Assembly (NCBI GenBank): GCA_016218685.1
Contig: JACRDD010000036.1
Coordinates: 1-64,000, forward strand
Length of the DNA: 64,000 nt
Origin: Desulfobacterales bacterium
GTDB lineage: Bacteria > Desulfobacterota > Desulfobacteria > Desulfobacterales > Desulfosarcinaceae
Direction: 5' to 3'
In this document: positions 9,612 through 33,785 of the stretch, one piece after another
Layout: each line of letters begins with the position of its first letter
Position numbering within the stretch: the first letter of the stretch is position 1
The notes under the pieces: model-generated
The model's input: only the letters and a program-made list of their open reading frames with translations
The model's database searches: none
Told to the model about the DNA's origin: nothing
Position numbers and translations under genes: made by a program

Positions 9612-12600
9612 TTACTCTTTGGGCAGCGGGGGTCTGCGCGGTTTCAGGCGCTCCACCAGGCGCAGGAGGGGTTCGGTCCAACCGGCGACAGGACCGGGTT
9701 TGTAGCGATAGATCTCGGCCAGGGAAAGATGCGGATCGCGGGTGGGGCTGCGCAGGTAGTGGCGCAGGGCCTTGAGACGCTCGCGAATGCGATTTTCCAC
9801 TTCGGCGCGCAGAGCCTCCTTGATGGTCAGGATGCGTTCCTTGGTGCCGGGGGAAGGGGGCTCGTTCTTGTACTTGGCCAGTTTGTATTGGATGCGCAGG
9901 TGAATGAGCTCCCGCAACCGTTCTTCGTAGGCCGGGTCCAGGCAAACCACTTCGGGGATCAGGTCTCCGAAATGGGTCACCCCCAGGATATCCTTGTCCT
10001 GGGACCAGTACCCCATGAGGAAGTCCTGCTCCAAATCCATGTAATTCTTGAGCGGCATGTACATGCGGCGCAGGTAGGTCAGCACCTTTTCGGCCTTCTT
10101 CTTATGGCCGCCGATAATAACCGAGCCGCCCACCTCGCCGGGTTTGACCCCCTTGGTCCAGGGGGCGCCGGTGATGCCGAAATCGTTGAATACGGGGATC
10201 AGCATGAGGGCCGACAAGGTGTTGATGGCCAGGGCATAGCCGGCCGATGGGCCGCCCACGTTGTACGAGGCCGAAAGCAGTTGGTGGTGGATGGTATAAT
10301 CTTCCAGAAAATTGCCCAGCAGGCGGGCCGTGCTCACCTTGGGGTCCAACCCCTGCAAGTAGTTCTTGACCATGGTCAAGGCTTCCTGGGCCGATTGCTG
10401 GGTCATCTGCACAGCCATCTCCAGTTCGGCGGCGGCCGCTGCTGCTGACGAGACTGCGCCGGTGACCAGCACATTGCGGTCCGAGACCCGATAGGTGAGG
10501 CTGGTGGCGATGGGCAACAGCACGCCGGCGACATCGCTGGCGCCCACGCCGATGATGAAACCCACCTGGGGTTCCTGGCTCAGCTCGGCTTCCAGAAATT
10601 CGTCGAGCTGTACCTTGCCCTTTTTGGTGGGGCTTTGGGAAATCTCCAGCTTGGCCGACTGCAAATGGGTCCGGGTCAGGGGATACTGTTCGGGTGCCTG
10701 GATGCGCCGGCAGGCGGCGTTGATCGGGTCGAAATGATCGGCGATGGCCAGGGGAGCGGCTTTGATCTGGGCGCGCAGGGCAGGTGCCAGGTCGATGGCC
10801 TCCACAATGCCCATCAGGGTCTTGAGGTTGAATTTGATGAAGTTGAGCTTGTTCTCCCGGTCCGCGTTTTCCATTTGACGCAATCGCAGCAGCACTTCGT
10901 ATTCGGTGCTGCGCAGGGCCTTGGCTTTCTCCACGAAGGCGGCGTAATCGGCCGGCGTGTTGCAAAGTCCCTGGGCTGCCTCCAGAATCGATTGAATGGA
11001 GAGATGGGCAGCCAGGGGGATGCCTTCCAGGGAGATGGCCACGATGCTCTGAATATCGTCCTTGCTCATCATGCCGCTGATCTCCAGCACCTTGAGGCGC
11101 TTTGAACGGACCAGGGCCGGGTCGATGATGTCCAGCCGATTGGTGGTCAGCACGGTGAAGACGCGGTGCAGGGGAACCTCCCCGTCGATCAGGTTGAGGA
11201 AGCGGTTGGTCAGCTTGTCGGTGGGCGAGCCGCCCGAGGCGCTGCGCCGGGGGGCCAGGGCATCGCCCTCGTCGAAGAAGATCACGGTGGGGGCGATCAT
11301 CTTGGCGATGTCGAAGAGTTTTTCCATGTTCTCCACGGCCCCGTCGATGGGATTGGCCGGATCTTGCAGGGCCGTCGCGCTGGTGGCGATATCGTGGACA
11401 TCCTTGTTTTCGCTGAGCCAGGTGCGCACCAGGAAGGTTTTGCCGCCGCCCGGCGGTCCGTTGAGCACGACCCCTTTTTCTTCCTCGATATTGTAGTAAA
11501 GGCAGTTGTTGACCATCTCCGAGAAGATGTCCTTGATGCCGCCCACATACTCTTCCCAGCGCACATGGCGATCCATGCGGTCCACAATCTTCTTGTACAG
11601 GTCTCCGTAGGAGTTCTGGGCCACCAATTCGAATGCCCGGCGGACGAGCATGGGGTCCTGCAGGTAGGCTGTGTCGAAATCCTTTTTGATCTCGACGATG
11701 GAGTGGATCAATTTGCGCACATAGGAGGGGATCACCTTCAGGGTGCGCTCGTTGAAGACTTTGTAGATCCACTCCACGGTTTGCTCCAATGCTTCGGGCC
11801 GGATGCTGGCCGGACGGTCCTGACGGGGCGAGGTTTCCATCGGCCGCACGGCGATATCGTGGCGTTGCAGCTCCAGGCGCACCACCTCTTTGAGGTTGGC
11901 CGGATTCTTCCAGAAATCGGCGATGTTGACAATTTGGCCCTTTTCCACGAAGCGGCGGTAGATGGCGGCATCGAACCGTTCGGGCTGATCGGTGGTGGCG
12001 ATGAGCAGGCAGTCCCGTTTGCCGCTGATGATCTCGTCGATGACGATATTGGATGTGTCGATGAGGGTGCGCTGCTGGCGCTCGGCGCCTCCGGCGTGGC
12101 TCTCCACGCGGCCGAAGGCGCTGTGGGCCTCCTCCACGTGGCGGATGGAAGGCTTGCGCGCATCGCCCAAGGCACGCTTGAAGTAATTTCCCGGCTCGCC
12201 GGCCAAAGCGGTCTGGTAGTCGTTGGGCGTCACCATGGCGTAATCCACATGCAGACCTTGTTCTTCCAGCAGCGAGAGGTGGCGGCGGATGGAGTGGCTG
12301 AAGAGCCAGTTGATCACCGGCAGACCTGAAAGACGCTTGTAGAATTTGAGCCGCTTGAGGTGGGCAATCTCCATGGCCAGGGAGGGATCGATCTCCTCCA
12401 CGCTCTTCCAGAACGGCTCGTTGGCCAGCAGGGCCTCTTTCTTCTGCTCCAGGTCGATTTCCGGAAGCACCTGGTCGTTGAAGATCACGCGTTCGATGGC
12501 CTGGGTCACCGTGGAGGTTTTGCCGCTGCCCGATGGGCCGACGAAGAGAAGTAACGGCGCCTTGGGGATGGCGGGGTCGGCCATGTACTCCTTGCGGATA

Positions 12601-13025
12601 TGGGCGCGGTAAATCTTCTCGAACAACGTTTGCAGCTCCACCGGTACGTGCACGTCGCTCAGGCTTTGGTCCAGCAGGCTCAACAGGTAGAGATAGTCCC
12701 TGGCCGTGACCTCTTTTTCCAGAATGCGGTTCCAGGCATCCTGGGGGTTGGTTTGGCCCGACAAGGCGAAGCGATGCTGCCAATCGGTGAGGATGTTCGG
12801 GTCCCTGAGCACCTGGAAGCTTTTGTCCGGGGGTTCCATGAAGAAGGCGAGCAGCCATTCGATGGCGGCGTTGAGCCACCCGGCCGGCGGTTTGTACTGG
12901 TTGAGCCGCGCGCGCATGAAGGCCCGGGTTTCAAAGGACCACGATTCCACCAGCGCCTGGATTTCGTGAATACGCTGTTCGGGCAGGCGTACATAGGTCA
13001 CTTTGCGGGTCAGACGGCGGGCCAT
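9612..13025 (-). CDS. Tandem AAA ATPase with C-terminal Lon-type (S16) Ser/Lys protease domain
   Basis: Walker A GPSGSGKTS and GPPGGGKTF, Walker B TVIFFDEGDAL, Lon-like NVGGPSAGYALAI catalytic Ser and GGSVIIGGHKKKAEKV catalytic Lys. Confidence 0.85.
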   Translation of the reverse strand: MARRLTRKVTYVRLPEQRIHEIQALVESWSFETRAFMRARLNQYKPPAGWLNAAIEWLLAFFMEPPDKSFQVLRDPNILTDWQHRFALSGQTNPQDAWNRILEKEVTARDYLYLLSLLDQSLSDVHVPVELQTLFEKIYRAHIRKEYMADPAIPKAPLLLFVGPSGSGKTSTVTQAIERVIFNDQVLPEIDLEQKKEALLANEPFWKSVEEIDPSLAMEIAHLKRLKFYKRLSGLPVINWLFSHSIRRHLSLLEEQGLHVDYAMVTPNDYQTALAGEPGNYFKRALGDARKPSIRHVEEAHSAFGRVESHAGGAERQQRTLIDTSNIVIDEIISGKRDCLLIATTDQPERFDAAIYRRFVEKGQIVNIADFWKNPANLKEVVRLELQRHDIAVRPMETSPRQDRPASIRPEALEQTVEWIYKVFNERTLKVIPSYVRKLIHSIVEIKKDFDTAYLQDPMLVRRAFELVAQNSYGDLYKKIVDRMDRHVRWEEYVGGIKDIFSEMVNNCLYYNIEEEKGVVLNGPPGGGKTFLVRTWLSENKDVHDIATSATALQDPANPIDGAVENMEKLFDIAKMIAPTVIFFDEGDALAPRRSASGGSPTDKLTNRFLNLIDGEVPLHRVFTVLTTNRLDIIDPALVRSKRLKVLEISGMMSKDDIQSIVAISLEGIPLAAHLSIQSILEAAQGLCNTPADYAAFVEKAKALRSTEYEVLLRLRQMENADRENKLNFIKFNLKTLMGIVEAIDLAPALRAQIKAAPLAIADHFDPINAACRRIQAPEQYPLTRTHLQSAKLEISQSPTKKGKVQLDEFLEAELSQEPQVGFIIGVGASDVAGVLLPIATSLTYRVSDRNVLVTGAVSSAAAAAAELEMAVQMTQQSAQEALTMVKNYLQGLDPKVSTARLLGNFLEDYTIHHQLLSASYNVGGPSAGYALAINTLSALMLIPVFNDFGITGAPWTKGVKPGEVGGSVIIGGHKKKAEKVLTYLRRMYMPLKNYMDLEQDFLMGYWSQDKDILGVTHFGDLIPEVVCLDPAYEERLRELIHLRIQYKLAKYKNEPPSPGTKERILTIKEALRAEVENRIRERLKALRHYLRSPTRDPHLSLAEIYRYKPGPVAGWTEPLLRLVERLKPRRPPLPKE

Positions 13026-13065
13026 GGCGTATCTCCGCTTTTAAAAGGCAATATGCCTTAGCTTC

Positions 13066-14016
13066 CTACTTTTTGCTTTCCGCTTTTACCTCCGGCCGCG
13101 CCGGTGCCGGCAGGGTCAGGGCCGGCGACGATTCGGTATTCTGGATCACGATGGTGTTCTGACCCTCCTGGTCCTTCTCATAGGCCGTGGCCCATTTTTG
13201 CTGGGTCAAAAATTGCAGGATGGCATTATCCGTCGAGCCGTCCGGGCGGCCGATGCTCTTTTGCAGGGCCTGGATTCCGTCCACATAAGCGGCATAGAGT
13301 TTGCGGATGCGGCTGGCCTCTTGATCGGCCGCGTAATTTTCGGCCTCGGCGATCAGTTCGCGGCGCTTCTTCTCCTCGGTGGCCTCCACCAGCTTGTCGC
13401 CGAAGCGGGTCTCCTTGAGCACGAAGCTGACGATCTCGATGCCGTACTTGCCCTCCAGGGTGGGGCCGCCCTGGTTGATGGCTCGGGCTTTAAGGGCCGC
13501 GTAGATTTTGTCTTTCACCTGTTCGCGATCGGAGATCAGTTGGTCCACCGGTTCGGCTTGCAGCAGATCCTTGACGATGCCGTCGTAATCGCCTTGCAGC
13601 AGGTTCATGGGGTTCTGGTTTTCGATGGCCCAGACATTCAGATCGCGAATGCGGTAGGTCAGCACCGCCGAGGTCCACAGGGCCACGTTGCCTTTGGAGA
13701 TGATGCGCATCGGTTCTTCCTGGCCGCCCAACAGCAGTTGCTGGTTCATCAGGGTCACCTCCTGTTCGATGCGCGTGAAAAACGGCAGGCGCACGTGCCA
13801 GCCCACCGCGGTCACCGCTTCGCGCAGGCCGCCCAGCCGCTCCAAGACCACGGCATAGTTCATTTTGACCTTATAGATGGTCTTGGAGGCGTACACCAGG
13901 GCCACCAGGCCGTAGGCCAGGCACAACAGAACGATCAGGCCGATGATGCGGCGCAGGACCTTTTTAATAAAGGCCCGGCGCAGGAAGCGTTGCTGTTGCT
14001 GCTGAAGTTCCTCCAT
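13066..14016 (-). CDS. SPFH/band 7 (HflK/HflC/prohibitin-like) membrane protein
   Basis: N-terminal TM (RRIIGLIVLLCLAYGLVALVY), VVLERLGGLREAVTAVGWHVRLPFFTRIEQEV, TYRIRDL, EKKRRELIAEAENYAADQEASRIR. Confidence 0.85.
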   Translation of the reverse strand: MEELQQQQQRFLRRAFIKKVLRRIIGLIVLLCLAYGLVALVYASKTIYKVKMNYAVVLERLGGLREAVTAVGWHVRLPFFTRIEQEVTLMNQQLLLGGQEEPMRIISKGNVALWTSAVLTYRIRDLNVWAIENQNPMNLLQGDYDGIVKDLLQAEPVDQLISDREQVKDKIYAALKARAINQGGPTLEGKYGIEIVSFVLKETRFGDKLVEATEEKKRRELIAEAENYAADQEASRIRKLYAAYVDGIQALQKSIGRPDGSTDNAILQFLTQQKWATAYEKDQEGQNTIVIQNTESSPALTLPAPARPEVKAESKK

Positions 14017-14271
14017 ATCGTCTCCTTTGATAGCCGATGATCGATGGTGCCGGAAAGGTTGATGATAAGGATGGGACCGGTGGCGTCGGGAGTCATCGGG
14101 TTGAAATCCGTCCTGGATCCGACGCGCTGAATGCTACTGTTTAAATTAGAACACAAAACTATGGACCGTTCAAGGGTTGACTTGGCGCACGTCCCTTTCT
14201 ATGATGCTTGCCAACGCGTCTAAGATCCGTTGCCGTTCCGGCCAAATGCAACCTCGTCAAAGGAGAAACCC

Positions 14272-15339
14272 TTGAAAGTACTCGCCCTTAATTCGAGTCC
14301 GCGTGGTGAAGGACAGAGCAAGACCGAGCTTTTGCTTTCCCATCTCGTTCAAGGCATGCAGGCCGCCGGCGCGCACGTCGATGTGGTTCACCTTCGCCAG
14401 CAGAAGATCAAAAACTGTATCGGCTGCTTCACCTGCTGGACCAAAACGCCGGGCGTGTGCGTCCACAAGGACGACATGAGCGCCACGCTCTTGCCCAAGT
14501 TCCTGGCCGCCGACATCGTGGTGTGCGCCACACCGCTTTACCATTTCACGGTCAACGCCACCCTGAAGGCTTTCATCGAGCGCACCCTGCCCATACTCCA
14601 GCCCTTTTTGATGGAATATCAAGGTCGCACGGTGCATCCCCTGCGCCATCCGCATCCGGGCATGGTGATGTTGTCGGTGGCCGGTTTCCACGAACCGTCG
14701 GTGTTCGATCAACTCTCGTCCTGGGCACGATTCATCTTCGCCAAGAAGCTGCTGGCCGAACTCTATCGGCCCGGCGCCGAAGCCCTGACCACCGCTTACT
14801 ACGCCCCCAAGGCCCAGAGCATTCTGGCGGCGGCCCATCAGGCCGGTCGCGAGCTGGTGCAAAACCGTCAGGTCTCGGCCGAAACCCTGGCGCTGTTCGG
14901 GCAAAAAATCGAGGAAGACCCGATAGCGTGGCGCACCATGGGTAACCTGATGTGGAAGAGTTGCATCGCCGAAGGGTTGACCGTTAAGGAGTTTGCCGAG
15001 CGCGGCCGGCCGCCCCGTCCGGACTCTCTGGAAAGCTTCATGATGCTCATGTCCATGGGGTTTAACCCCCAAAAAGCGGGCGATACCCGGGCGTCGATTC
15101 AATTCGATTTCTCGGGCGAGGTGGAGGGCGCCTGCCATTTCAAAATCGCCGACGGCACCATTCAGGCGTTCGAAGGTGCGGCCGCCCAGCCCAGCCTGGT
15201 GGTCCGCTCGCCCTTCGGGGTGTGGATGGATATCCTCACCGGCAAGAGCGACGGCCAACAGTTGTTCTTATCCAAAGCCTATACGGTGGAGGGCGACCTG
15301 GCGCTGCTGATGCGCTTCGACCAGATCTTCGGCCGGTAG
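14272..15339 (+). CDS. NADPH-dependent FMN reductase/flavodoxin-fold protein fused to a C-terminal SCP2-like sterol-binding domain
   Basis: KVLALNSSPRGEGQSKTELLL, CIGCFTCW; C-terminal IQFDFSGEVEGACHFKIADGTIQAFEGAA...GKSDGQQLFLSKAYTVEGDLALLMRF; TTG start preceded by AAAGGAG. Confidence 0.75.
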   Translation: MKVLALNSSPRGEGQSKTELLLSHLVQGMQAAGAHVDVVHLRQQKIKNCIGCFTCWTKTPGVCVHKDDMSATLLPKFLAADIVVCATPLYHFTVNATLKAFIERTLPILQPFLMEYQGRTVHPLRHPHPGMVMLSVAGFHEPSVFDQLSSWARFIFAKKLLAELYRPGAEALTTAYYAPKAQSILAAAHQAGRELVQNRQVSAETLALFGQKIEEDPIAWRTMGNLMWKSCIAEGLTVKEFAERGRPPRPDSLESFMMLMSMGFNPQKAGDTRASIQFDFSGEVEGACHFKIADGTIQAFEGAAAQPSLVVRSPFGVWMDILTGKSDGQQLFLSKAYTVEGDLALLMRFDQIFGR

Positions 15340-30929: not shown

Positions 30930-32159
30930 TTATAGGTTCTTGGCATGGGAGAGCAGATTCTTGCTGACGGCCAGGTTCATGCCGGTGTGGATCAACTCAT
31001 GGGGACCCTCTTCGAAAGGCAGGTAGACCAGTAGAAAACGACGGAGGGTGACGCGTAGATTGCCGATCACCGCTTCCATGCGCGGCCGCGGCTTCACGCT
31101 GAATGCCAGGATCAGGCCCAAACTTTCCAATGCCTCCTCGACCGGCATGTTGATACCGTGCGCAGTACCCTGGGGCAGCCCGGCCGCGATCTCTTCCCGG
31201 GGCTGGCAGGTGGTGACCTGTGTCGCGATGGAGAGAAATCGTTGGGGTTGGGCCTTGAAGGCCGGCGTCCAGAAGTAAAAAGGCAAATCTTCCCAGCCCG
31301 GCTGGACCACCCGGGGAAGGTTGGCCACCCGCACCAGGTCGGCATAGCTGTTGAGCGTCAAGCCGCCGATATCGGCTTCGATGCGCCAGAAAGGCAGGAA
31401 TACCGTGCCCGGACGCCAACCGGGCTGATGCACGACCTGCAGCCGTTCCAGACGGCGGCCCTTGGCCATCCATACGGAGGCACAATTGGGGCAGGTCAAG
31501 GCCAGCGCGTCATTTTCGCCCTCCAGATCCCATCCGCATTGGGGGCAGAGGGTGGGAATGAAGGTGATCGGCCAGCTCGGGTCGCGCGCCTGGCTCAGCA
31601 ATGGCTCGATCTGCTCGGCTGTCCCGCTTTGCGTGGGTTCGTTCAAGACGGCGTCCATCAGCCGGTTTTCCAGGTAGAACGGCGCATAGAGCAAGCTATA
31701 GGTTTCGCCGATCTGGGCATTGAGCAGGATCGGTTGGGGCAGTCTGACGCTCAAATTGGCGTTGAGGCGCTCCAGCAGATCCGCTTTGCCGGCGCGCGGC
31801 TCTAAAAAAAGGCCCTGGCAGTCGCCGCCGGCCAAGCGCAATTTTTGGGTCTGACTGCGAAACCCCAAGGAAAAAGGAAAATGGGGCGAGGCGATGGCCT
31901 GCTGGCTGACATCCACGAAGTTGTTTTTGATCTGTCCGGGCACGCAGAAGAAGAGCATCCCCTTGAAACGCCAATAAGGGAAGTAAATTAACTCTTTGCC
32001 GGACGGAGCCTTGTTCGGCAGCACATAGCGGAAGTAATCGGGCACGCTCAAACAGGAGCCGGCCCGGCAATAACCGCAACGAAACAAGCGGTCACTTTCT
32101 TGCAGTTCGGCCGGACCGCCGCAGCGCGGGCATTGGTGTTCGACGATGAAAGAGGTCAA
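30930..32159 (-). CDS. Dual C4 zinc-ribbon protein of unknown function
   Basis: HQCPRCGGPAEL...RCGYCR and LCPQCGWDLE...LTCPNCASVW. Confidence 0.75.
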   Translation of the reverse strand: MTSFIVEHQCPRCGGPAELQESDRLFRCGYCRAGSCLSVPDYFRYVLPNKAPSGKELIYFPYWRFKGMLFFCVPGQIKNNFVDVSQQAIASPHFPFSLGFRSQTQKLRLAGGDCQGLFLEPRAGKADLLERLNANLSVRLPQPILLNAQIGETYSLLYAPFYLENRLMDAVLNEPTQSGTAEQIEPLLSQARDPSWPITFIPTLCPQCGWDLEGENDALALTCPNCASVWMAKGRRLERLQVVHQPGWRPGTVFLPFWRIEADIGGLTLNSYADLVRVANLPRVVQPGWEDLPFYFWTPAFKAQPQRFLSIATQVTTCQPREEIAAGLPQGTAHGINMPVEEALESLGLILAFSVKPRPRMEAVIGNLRVTLRRFLLVYLPFEEGPHELIHTGMNLAVSKNLLSHAKNL

Positions 32160-32162
32160 TGA

Positions 32163-33305
32163 TCAATACCTTTCCCCACACTGCGCGCAAAATGTCGCGT
32201 CGGCAAGATTTTCGACGCCGCACCGGACGCAATTTTTAGGCTGGGGTTTTTGCGCCACCGGATGACCGCAGCGCGAACAGAACTTGGCGCCGGCCGTCAG
32301 GTTCTTGCCGCACTGGGTGCATTGGGTGATGACCAACTGCTGATGGCCGCAACTGGGGCAGAATTTTGCTTCCACCGGAATGGGCTGATGGCACTCGCGG
32401 CAACGGAAGTCTCCCTGCGCCGCTTGTTGGCTGCCGGGCCCTGGCTGTCCCTGGGCCAGCGGGTGGGCGAAGTATTGGGCCAGCATCGCCGGCATCATCA
32501 GCCCCAGGCCGGCGCCCATGCCTTCGCCACCGGCGCCGCTGTCCGCGGCCTTCTCCATGGCCATGGCGGTTTTCATCTGCATCAGTTTGTTCATGTCTTT
32601 GAAAACGCCCATGCGGCTGCGGTCATCGATGGCCTGCTGCACTTCGGGCGGCGGCGTCACCGAATTGATGTACAGATGGGAGAGTCCCAGGCCGAAATGG
32701 GAGAAATCCTCCTGCAACCGCTTGGCCAGGCCCTGGGAAAGCTCGTCATACTTGGCGGGCAGCATGAGAAGCGAGTCGATGACTTCCCCCATGAAGTCGT
32801 TGAAGCGCGAAACGATCACGCGGTTCAAATACTCTTCGATGGCTTCGGTGGTGAATATGCCCTGGGTGCCCACCATGCGGTTGATGAAGAGCACGGGCTG
32901 TACTACTTGCATGTTGAAGACCCCGAAGGCGCGCAGCCGGACCAATCCCAGCTCGCTGTCCTTGAAGGCCACCGGGTCCCGAGTGCCCCATTTGAGATTG
33001 GTAAAGGTCTTCATGTTGACGAAGTACATTTCGGCGCGCAGCGGGCTGCTCATGCCCCAGGGGATACTGGCGATCTTGGTGAGGATGGGGATGTTGCCGG
33101 TGGTCAGGGTGTGCCGGCCGGGACCGAAGGCTTCCACGGCTTTGCCTTTGTAATAGAAGACACCCACCTGGCTTTCGCGCACGGTGAGCTGGGCACCCCA
33201 TTTGATCTCTCCGGAACCCCCTTCAGGCAAGCGATGGACCAGTTCTTGGCCGGATTCATCGAACCATTCCAGGTTTTCCAAAAAAACAAGGTTGTTGTTT
33301 GCCAT
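32163..33305 (-). CDS. SPFH domain/zinc-ribbon protein (YdjI/YdjL, virion-core-like family)
   Basis: N-terminal SPFH-like region (GEIKWGAQLTVRESQVGVFYYKGKAVEAFGPGRHTLTTGNIP) and C-terminal tandem CxxC ribbons (CRECHQPIPVEAKFCPSCGHQ, CTQCGKNLTAGAKFCSRCG, CVRCGVENLADATFCAQCG). Confidence 0.85.
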   Translation of the reverse strand: MANNNLVFLENLEWFDESGQELVHRLPEGGSGEIKWGAQLTVRESQVGVFYYKGKAVEAFGPGRHTLTTGNIPILTKIASIPWGMSSPLRAEMYFVNMKTFTNLKWGTRDPVAFKDSELGLVRLRAFGVFNMQVVQPVLFINRMVGTQGIFTTEAIEEYLNRVIVSRFNDFMGEVIDSLLMLPAKYDELSQGLAKRLQEDFSHFGLGLSHLYINSVTPPPEVQQAIDDRSRMGVFKDMNKLMQMKTAMAMEKAADSGAGGEGMGAGLGLMMPAMLAQYFAHPLAQGQPGPGSQQAAQGDFRCRECHQPIPVEAKFCPSCGHQQLVITQCTQCGKNLTAGAKFCSRCGHPVAQKPQPKNCVRCGVENLADATFCAQCGERY

Positions 33306-33785
33306 AAGGATTCTCCTTTGAGCGATGATGTGCAGAGCAGCTTTCGGCCACATACCACGTCATCTATATCGGCATGCACAATTCCTTTCTTAATCCAAAA
33401 GGGGAAAGGGGATCAACAAACAAAACAACTGCTTCCGTGGCATAACAAGCGCTTGAACAGGCGACGCGGCATTCCTCTCCAATTAGGCCGGTTCCCAGAA
33501 ATGACTTGAATTCAATTTTTAACTGGGTTAATAATTACGCCATCTCAAGCGGATTAGGACTCGCGGGTAAACCCAAGCTGGCCGAACAAAAGATTGTTGG
33601 TGAGAGCACATCCCGGATCGTCTATGCGTAAAGACTCTTATCCATCCAATTATACAATCCCCGGAAAAGTTAGTGAACAGTGTGAATTTTCATGAACCGG
33701 TTTTCAGGCGCGGCACCATGCTGTTGCCGCTTGAAAATGCCGTAGCATAAGCTATCGGCACAATTCATTCTTTTGGGAGGAAAGT

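Follow-up and report, generated by a model that had tools for sequence, protein, structure and literature searches.

Can an SPFH protein encoded next to a double-AAA, Lon-type protease provide an alternative to HflKC-FtsH? The question is raised by two adjacent genes in a 64,000-nt stretch (the window) of contig JACRDD010000036.1, which belongs to a Desulfobacterales assembly (GCA_016218685.1) that is 64.6% complete. The two genes are strictly linked, and in some sulfate-reducing bacteria the pair looks like an undescribed membrane-linked protein-degradation machine that stands beside FtsH. The architecture of the protease is new, an SPFH-linked AAA protease is of a known kind, and the main uncertainty is biochemical. 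The genes and the evidence used for each are as follows.

13066..14016, minus strand: SPFH gene, 316 aa (Band_7, 38-member alignment, AlphaFold2 (AF2), Foldseek, transmembrane and charge analysis)
9612..13025, minus strand: tandem-AAA Lon-type protease gene, 1137 aa, without a transmembrane segment (Pfam, homologue alignment, hydropathy)

Linkage and distribution of the gene pair

As originally predicted, the SPFH gene lies directly 5' of the protease gene on the same strand, with 40 bp between the two open reading frames (ORFs), and the codon-position G+C of both is alike and strong (~0.62/0.37/0.82). The claim that the two belong together withstood a neighborhood survey, which could have found the homologues mostly apart from an SPFH gene: wherever both genes are complete (39 loci), the SPFH gene is the immediate 5' neighbor of the protease gene and shares its strand. 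The intergenic gaps over these loci range from -71 to +202 bp, with many overlaps, and such short gaps and frequent overlaps suggest that the pair is probably translationally coupled.

The same linkage was observed in a survey of 291 genomes of the order, in which an SPFH limit of E 1e-30 was applied and SPFH and protease matches were compared place by place. The SPFH gene was present in 54 genomes, always at E <1e-148 and with no match between that value and the limit. All 54 carriers have the protease gene, and 54 of 55 SPFH copies adjoin it, the sole non-adjacent copy being at a contig end. Six relatives of the same family gave no SPFH match: five of them have no protease gene either, a co-loss of the two, and one (G553) holds only a protease fragment. 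In the wider phylum, the SPFH gene was found in 12 of 395 genomes and the full protease gene in 11 of 297, with no SPFH match between E 1e-152 and the 1e-20 limit; the genomes searched with both queries have both genes or neither. Moreover, the pairwise distances of the two proteins correlate (r = 0.90), as expected for co-inheritance, a correlation that species phylogeny alone could also yield. The mean distance is 0.30 for the SPFH protein and 0.37 for the protease.

Named carriers include Desulfosarcina, Desulfatitalea, Desulfofustis, Desulfopila, Desulfosediminicola, and Desulforhopalus, and the pair is patchy within families and even within the genus of the window. No members were seen outside Desulfobacterota in a scan by exact 8-residue patterns, which reaches close relatives only. 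Viral or plasmid copies were considered and rejected, the matches being limited to AAA regions and the SPFH protein having no plasmid match. Where a locus is truncated, its sequence starts within the protease gene, at a contig end or close to one. The G553 fragment (locus L038; contig DAOWNV010000249.1 = G553:C129, 4.3 kb) starts from residue 571 of the protease and follows YdjI/YdjG-like genes without an SPFH gene, an arrangement that either a misjoin or a deletion would explain. In the draft genome of Desulfosarcina cetonica JCM 12296 (L034, 8001-11379), the protease gene is split over at least two frames, by sequencing error or a real frameshift.

Architecture of the tandem-AAA protease

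The 1137-aa protein was divided into five parts, all encoded on the minus strand.

12621..13025, minus strand: N-terminal domain, residues 1-135, beta hairpin and helices
11826..12638, minus strand: AAA1, ~residues 130-400, with Walker A at 163-170, a Walker B-like site at 294-304, and a segment resembling the second region of homology (SRH), ATTDQPERFDAAIYRRF, at 343-359
10866..11573, minus strand: AAA2, ~residues 485-720, Cdc48-like classical AAA, with Walker A at 523-530, Walker B at 581-586, and SRH TTNRLDIIDPALVRSKRL at 627-644
9921..10658, minus strand: putative S16 (Lon-type) protease domain, ~residues 790-1035, with Ser927 in GGPSAG and Lys977 in IGGHKKK
9615..9920, minus strand: C-terminal helical extension, residues 1036-1137, after the protease domain

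We aligned 39 full-length homologues, all from Desulfobacterota, which are 49-99% identical (minimum pairwise identity 48.8%). The two P-loops, the AAA2 Walker B, and the serine and lysine of the Lon-like domain, all picked out in the original prediction, are invariant in 39/39: Gly163, Gly166, Gly168, and Lys169 in AAA1; Gly523, Gly526, Gly528, and Lys529 in AAA2; Asp585 and Glu586 of the AAA2 Walker B; and Ser927 and Lys977, the third lysine of GGHKKK, with GGPSAG identical in all. Chance is excluded because the dyad, the P-loops, and the AAA2 Walker B are kept throughout at this minimum identity.

The Pfam AAA family matches the protein at 519-646 with E 1.8e-28, and two stretches pass. AAA2 has the Walker A, Walker B, and SRH of the classical AAA clade of Cdc48 and FtsH, and its SRH is textbook-like and invariant in the alignment. 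Its best PDB sequence match is Cdc48/VCP (E 3e-38), and it shares 32% identity over 240 aa with a Cdc48-like protein of the phylum, whereas its alignment with LonA of its own genome is confined to the P-loop region. By sequence, AAA2 is thus assigned to the Cdc48/FtsH-type classical AAA rather than to the Lon AAA, which rules out a Lon protein with a duplicated Lon AAA.

AAA1 had been suspected of being degenerate, for want of a clean Walker B. That suspicion was not borne out: a Walker B-like site (I-R-H-[VLI]-E298-E299-A-H-[SA]-A-F) exists at residues 294-304, in which Arg295, His296, Glu298, and Glu299 are invariant across the homologues, and the SRH-like segment that follows it ends in an invariant YRRF. 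Because the site is invariant and is followed by this segment, AAA1 looks altered by selection rather than decayed, and it may be a nucleotide-binding module with altered hydrolysis. AAA1 also carries a ~75-aa helical insert and is weakly like spastin/Vps4 in PDB comparison. The N-terminal 480 aa were found in no other architecture among the 297 phylum genomes, so that the N-terminal domain (residues 1-135) is confined to this family in that sample, and no match to the Cdc48 N-domain was found in the 1137-aa protein. A weak PDB match of residues 211-271 to the proteasome chaperone p27 (E 0.0045) was judged to be probable chance.

The candidate protease domain combines a Ser-Lys dyad with a Pfam Lon_C match of 24.5 bits (cut-off 21.1) at 809-999, and the protease part is also supported by the TIGR00763 Lon model (E 4.6e-11). 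A profile comparison with LonA of the same genome (162 columns, 27% identity) places both residues on the LonA dyad, with weak score statistics (E 0.0034). Besides the window protein, three strong full Lon_C matches lie in long LonA-like ORFs of this genome (contigs C3, C6, and C34). The case for S16 membership is one of sequence and not of predicted fold. The AF2 model of the full protein has a mean predicted local distance difference test score (pLDDT) of 72.8, with AAA1 and most of AAA2 modeled reasonably. Its best Foldseek matches in the PDB are Cdc48/p97 chains, over ~650-770 alignment columns; differences in the protease part and in domain orientation keep the TM-scores low. These matches support the predicted tandem AAA arrangement.

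The SPFH protein and the relation to known systems

The SPFH protein starts with a Lys/Arg-rich tail (residues 1-23), followed by one transmembrane segment (~24-43), the SPFH/Band_7 domain (49-234), a helical region (214-276), and a disordered tail. Its membership of the SPFH/Band_7 superfamily, claimed from the outset, is confirmed by a Pfam Band_7 match at 49-234 (E 1e-17; 65.2 bits, cut-off 23.6) together with the fold: the AF2 model (pLDDT 73.8) finds its best Foldseek matches in HflK/C, stomatin, prohibitin, and QmcA. Neither the HflK nor the HflC equivalog model of NCBIfam is listed for this protein at E <= 1.

The original prediction proposed an alternative to HflKC-FtsH. While its pairing of an SPFH protein with a double-AAA/Lon-type protease stands as strict, the idea of a replacement does not: FtsH is present in 10/10 carrier genomes tested, and HflC scores above its curated cut-off in 15/17, the exceptions being the assembly of the window and G285. 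Since FtsH and HflC coexist with it in carriers, the SPFH-Lon pair is an addition to FtsH-HflKC and not a substitute. The incomplete assembly of the window itself yielded no FtsH. Two adjacent SPFH genes of this genome (G000:C29:50936-52515) were considered as HflKC and rejected, scoring below both the HflK and the HflC cut-offs; one of them starts with a lipoprotein-like signal (LSGC). In another genome (G126:C97:32229-38765), the HflK/HflC pair lies next to the SPFH-Lon pair in divergent orientation.

Comparing the pair with HflK/HflC-FtsH, both tie one-transmembrane SPFH proteins to a classical-AAA protease, and the SPFH fold of the pair is nearest to HflK/C, stomatin, and prohibitin. However, the pair has an S16-type Ser-Lys dyad instead of a zinc metalloprotease, two AAA modules, a protease without a transmembrane segment, and a single SPFH gene. 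The protein is likewise not an FtsH by its domains, as no M41 domain is among the Pfam matches listed, no own-genome M41 match appears there, and there is no transmembrane segment. With LonA, LonB, LonBA, and LonC, it shares an AAA motor and S16 domain in one chain, the A-type GPSAG serine, and the GGxxxK lysine; it differs from them in its two AAA modules, the Cdc48-type AAA2, a Ser-Lys offset of 50 rather than 43, a different N-domain, the long C-terminal helical extension, and the linked SPFH gene. It has neither the LON N-terminal domain nor the single Lon-type AAA of LonA, and TIGR00763 gives 41.9 bits against a cut-off of 608, for the protease part only. LonC lacks canonical AAA motifs and ATPase activity (PMC3391209), whereas the invariant Walker A, Walker B, and SRH of AAA2 suggest that the protein is not a LonC.

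Cdc48/p97/VAT proteins also have tandem AAA modules and give the best PDB sequence and Foldseek matches of the 1137-aa protein, but here a protease is fused on, AAA1 is unlike D1 and has a long insert, and the aromatic pore-loop residues are missing. The full-length CDC48 model scores 88.1 bits against a cut-off of 802.65, in the AAA2 region only. Erlin1/2, an SPFH complex, reportedly cooperates with p97, a soluble motor, via factors of endoplasmic-reticulum-associated degradation (ERAD) (PMC12624060). That system resembles the pair in joining an SPFH cage to a soluble tandem-AAA motor, while the protease of the pair is built into its motor. In SPFH-NfeD systems (QmcA-YbbJ; stomatin with ClpP-type NfeD1b), too, the SPFH gene shares a fixed operon with a partner gene; in the SPFH-Lon pair the partner is an ATP-dependent-type S16 protease rather than an NfeD/ClpP-fold membrane protein. 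The portion of an SPFH survey consulted describes NfeD partners, sometimes serine-protease-bearing, and no Lon-type partner (PMC2636767). A 2008 survey of S16 architectures lists LON-AAA-Lon_C, Sigma54_activat-AAA-Lon_C, Mg_chelatase-Lon_C, and a DnaB_C fusion (PMC2605481), and our literature searches found no description of the SPFH-Lon pair or of its protease architecture. PADLOC returned only generic AAA matches for the pair, giving no sign of a known defense system.

Proposed mechanism and rival explanations

We think it fairly probable that the pair serves quality control close to the membrane, with an SPFH ring that recruits or gates a Cdc48-like motor carrying its own Lon protease. The SPFH protein would form a membrane-anchored ring or cage. 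Its partner would be cytoplasmic and oligomeric, probably hexameric, with a Cdc48-like double AAA motor stacked on a Lon-type Ser-Lys chamber of the same chain. Recruited or gated by the ring at the inner membrane, the motor-protease would pull on proteins near the membrane, damaged or regulatory, and degrade them, as a second line next to HflKC-FtsH. The sequences show the two gene products, their invariant catalytic residues, the strict linkage and co-loss, and the coexistence with FtsH; we infer the oligomers, their physical contact, threading driven by ATP, proteolysis, and the substrates. The closest working parallels are HflKC-FtsH and, in ERAD, Erlin1/2 with p97. We suggest, more tentatively and with slightly less than even confidence, that the pair defines an undescribed class of ATP-dependent protease, in which a single-chain Cdc48-like double-AAA unfoldase with an S16 domain is the obligate partner of a dedicated SPFH ring, making the pair a self-contained bacterial counterpart, beside FtsH-HflKC, of an Erlin-p97-proteasome-style route that extracts proteins from the membrane and degrades them.

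Several observations weigh against this proposal. Both rings lack the canonical aromatic pore-loop residue: pore loop 1 of AAA2 is NPIDG, where Cdc48-like proteins of the phylum have M-W-L-G or K-Y-V-G, and the AAA1 pore loop is mostly ALAGE, a tryptophan replacing the leucine in only 3/39. Threading may consequently be weak or unusual. In all 39 members, the Ser-Lys offset is 50 (49 residues between); in LonA and LonB, exactly 42 residues separate the catalytic Ser from the Lys, an offset of 43 (PMC9569914). AF2, run with a 37-sequence alignment, gave no confident S16 core, with pLDDT <50 at 798-875 and low values over most of 798-975. The protease has no transmembrane segment, its maximum 19-residue hydropathy being 1.95. 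In addition, the Lys/Arg count of the N-terminal flank of the SPFH transmembrane segment equals or exceeds that of the C-terminal flank in all members, and exceeds it in most, so that by the positive-inside rule the SPFH domain is predicted to be periplasmic (N-in), as in HflK/C. Direct contact with the protease would then be limited to the short N-terminal tail or go via an adaptor. Erlin1/2, prohibitins, and HflK/C are also assembled on the membrane side opposite their motor. The predicted topology is therefore not fatal to the proposal, as these complexes sit likewise and Erlin is reported to act with soluble p97. QmcA-type proteins instead face the cytoplasm, according to the SPFH survey (PMC2636767).

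The surroundings of the pair offer few further clues. Only the SPFH and protease genes are near-universal across loci, and no other consistent operon partner was found. In nine Desulfosarcina-type loci with an intact SPFH gene, and in L038, the genes directly upstream and in the same orientation are YdjI-like (SPFH with zinc ribbons) and/or YdjG-like. Only one clade has this neighborhood, and most loci with sufficient sequence upstream lack it. In B. subtilis, PspA is recruited to the membrane by YdjI, which tethers it there, and by YdjG/H (PMC8581546); together with the upstream genes, this role hints, by analogy, at a link of the pair to envelope stress. The window itself has YdjG-like (409 aa, zinc-ribbon) and YdjI-like (396 aa, SPFH with zinc ribbons) genes ~17 kb from the pair (30930-33353, minus strand), and in Desulfosarcina-type genomes the orthologues of these two genes, 73-76% identical for the YdjI-like protein, immediately precede the SPFH-Lon pair. 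Upstream of the SPFH gene in 29 loci, no shared stress promoter pattern (sigma32, CIRCE, sigma54, sigma70-like, or sigmaE-like) was found, and AGGAG-type ribosome sites precede most starts. The gene at 14230-15339 of the window (plus strand), divergent from the SPFH gene, fuses an SCP2 sterol-carrier domain to an NADPH-dependent FMN reductase/flavodoxin-like domain.

The missing aromatic residues would also suit a remodeling role, in which the Cdc48/Vps4-like AAA part takes apart or reshapes SPFH or PspA-type assemblies at the membrane, while proteolysis by the Lon domain is limited and regulatory, directed for instance at the SPFH protein or at its own chain. The weak likeness of AAA1 to spastin/Vps4 and the YdjI/YdjG-like genes directly upstream in ten loci point the same way, and PspA/Band-7 contexts with classical AAA proteins, including a double-AAA form with an inactive N-terminal copy, have been described (PMC11237479). 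Yet the S16 domain is invariant throughout, dyad included, and the YdjI/YdjG neighborhood is confined as stated above; we regard remodeling as unlikely, if worth keeping in view. Strict linkage and co-loss are, for their part, equally expected of a regulator and its enzyme. The SPFH protein could thus inhibit or sequester the protease, or be its substrate, in a regulated-proteolysis switch released under membrane stress, and HflK/C is reported to control FtsH proteolysis (PMC12048511). Such a switch seems quite improbable to us, because the SPFH protein is conserved much like the enzyme (mean distances as given above) over its whole fold and not just in a degron or inhibitory tail.

The low Lon_C score, the unmodeled core, and the unusual Ser-Lys spacing would be accommodated if the Lon-type domain were a structural S16 fold without peptidase activity and the protein only an ATPase or assembly factor. 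RadA and ComM have S16 folds of this sort, which need not keep the dyad. Here, however, GGPSAG is identical in 39/39 homologues and Lys977 is invariant in a motif that aligns with the LonA dyad, which makes a non-peptidase domain very improbable.

SPFH rings recur with AAA machines (HflKC-FtsH, prohibitin-m-AAA, and Erlin-p97), and how the ring helps the motor is debated. The pair offers an independent and simpler case, with one SPFH gene and one soluble tandem-AAA serine protease in a gene order fixed over 39 loci, and as a two-component system it would make the role of an SPFH ring testable without paralogues or NfeD partners. The protease would also extend the known S16 architectures, all based on different ATPase domains in the 2008 survey (PMC2605481). 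If our proposal of an SPFH-recruited or SPFH-gated motor-protease is true, SPFH proteins have become coupled to ATP-dependent proteolysis through a second protease chemistry as well, one unrelated to the first.

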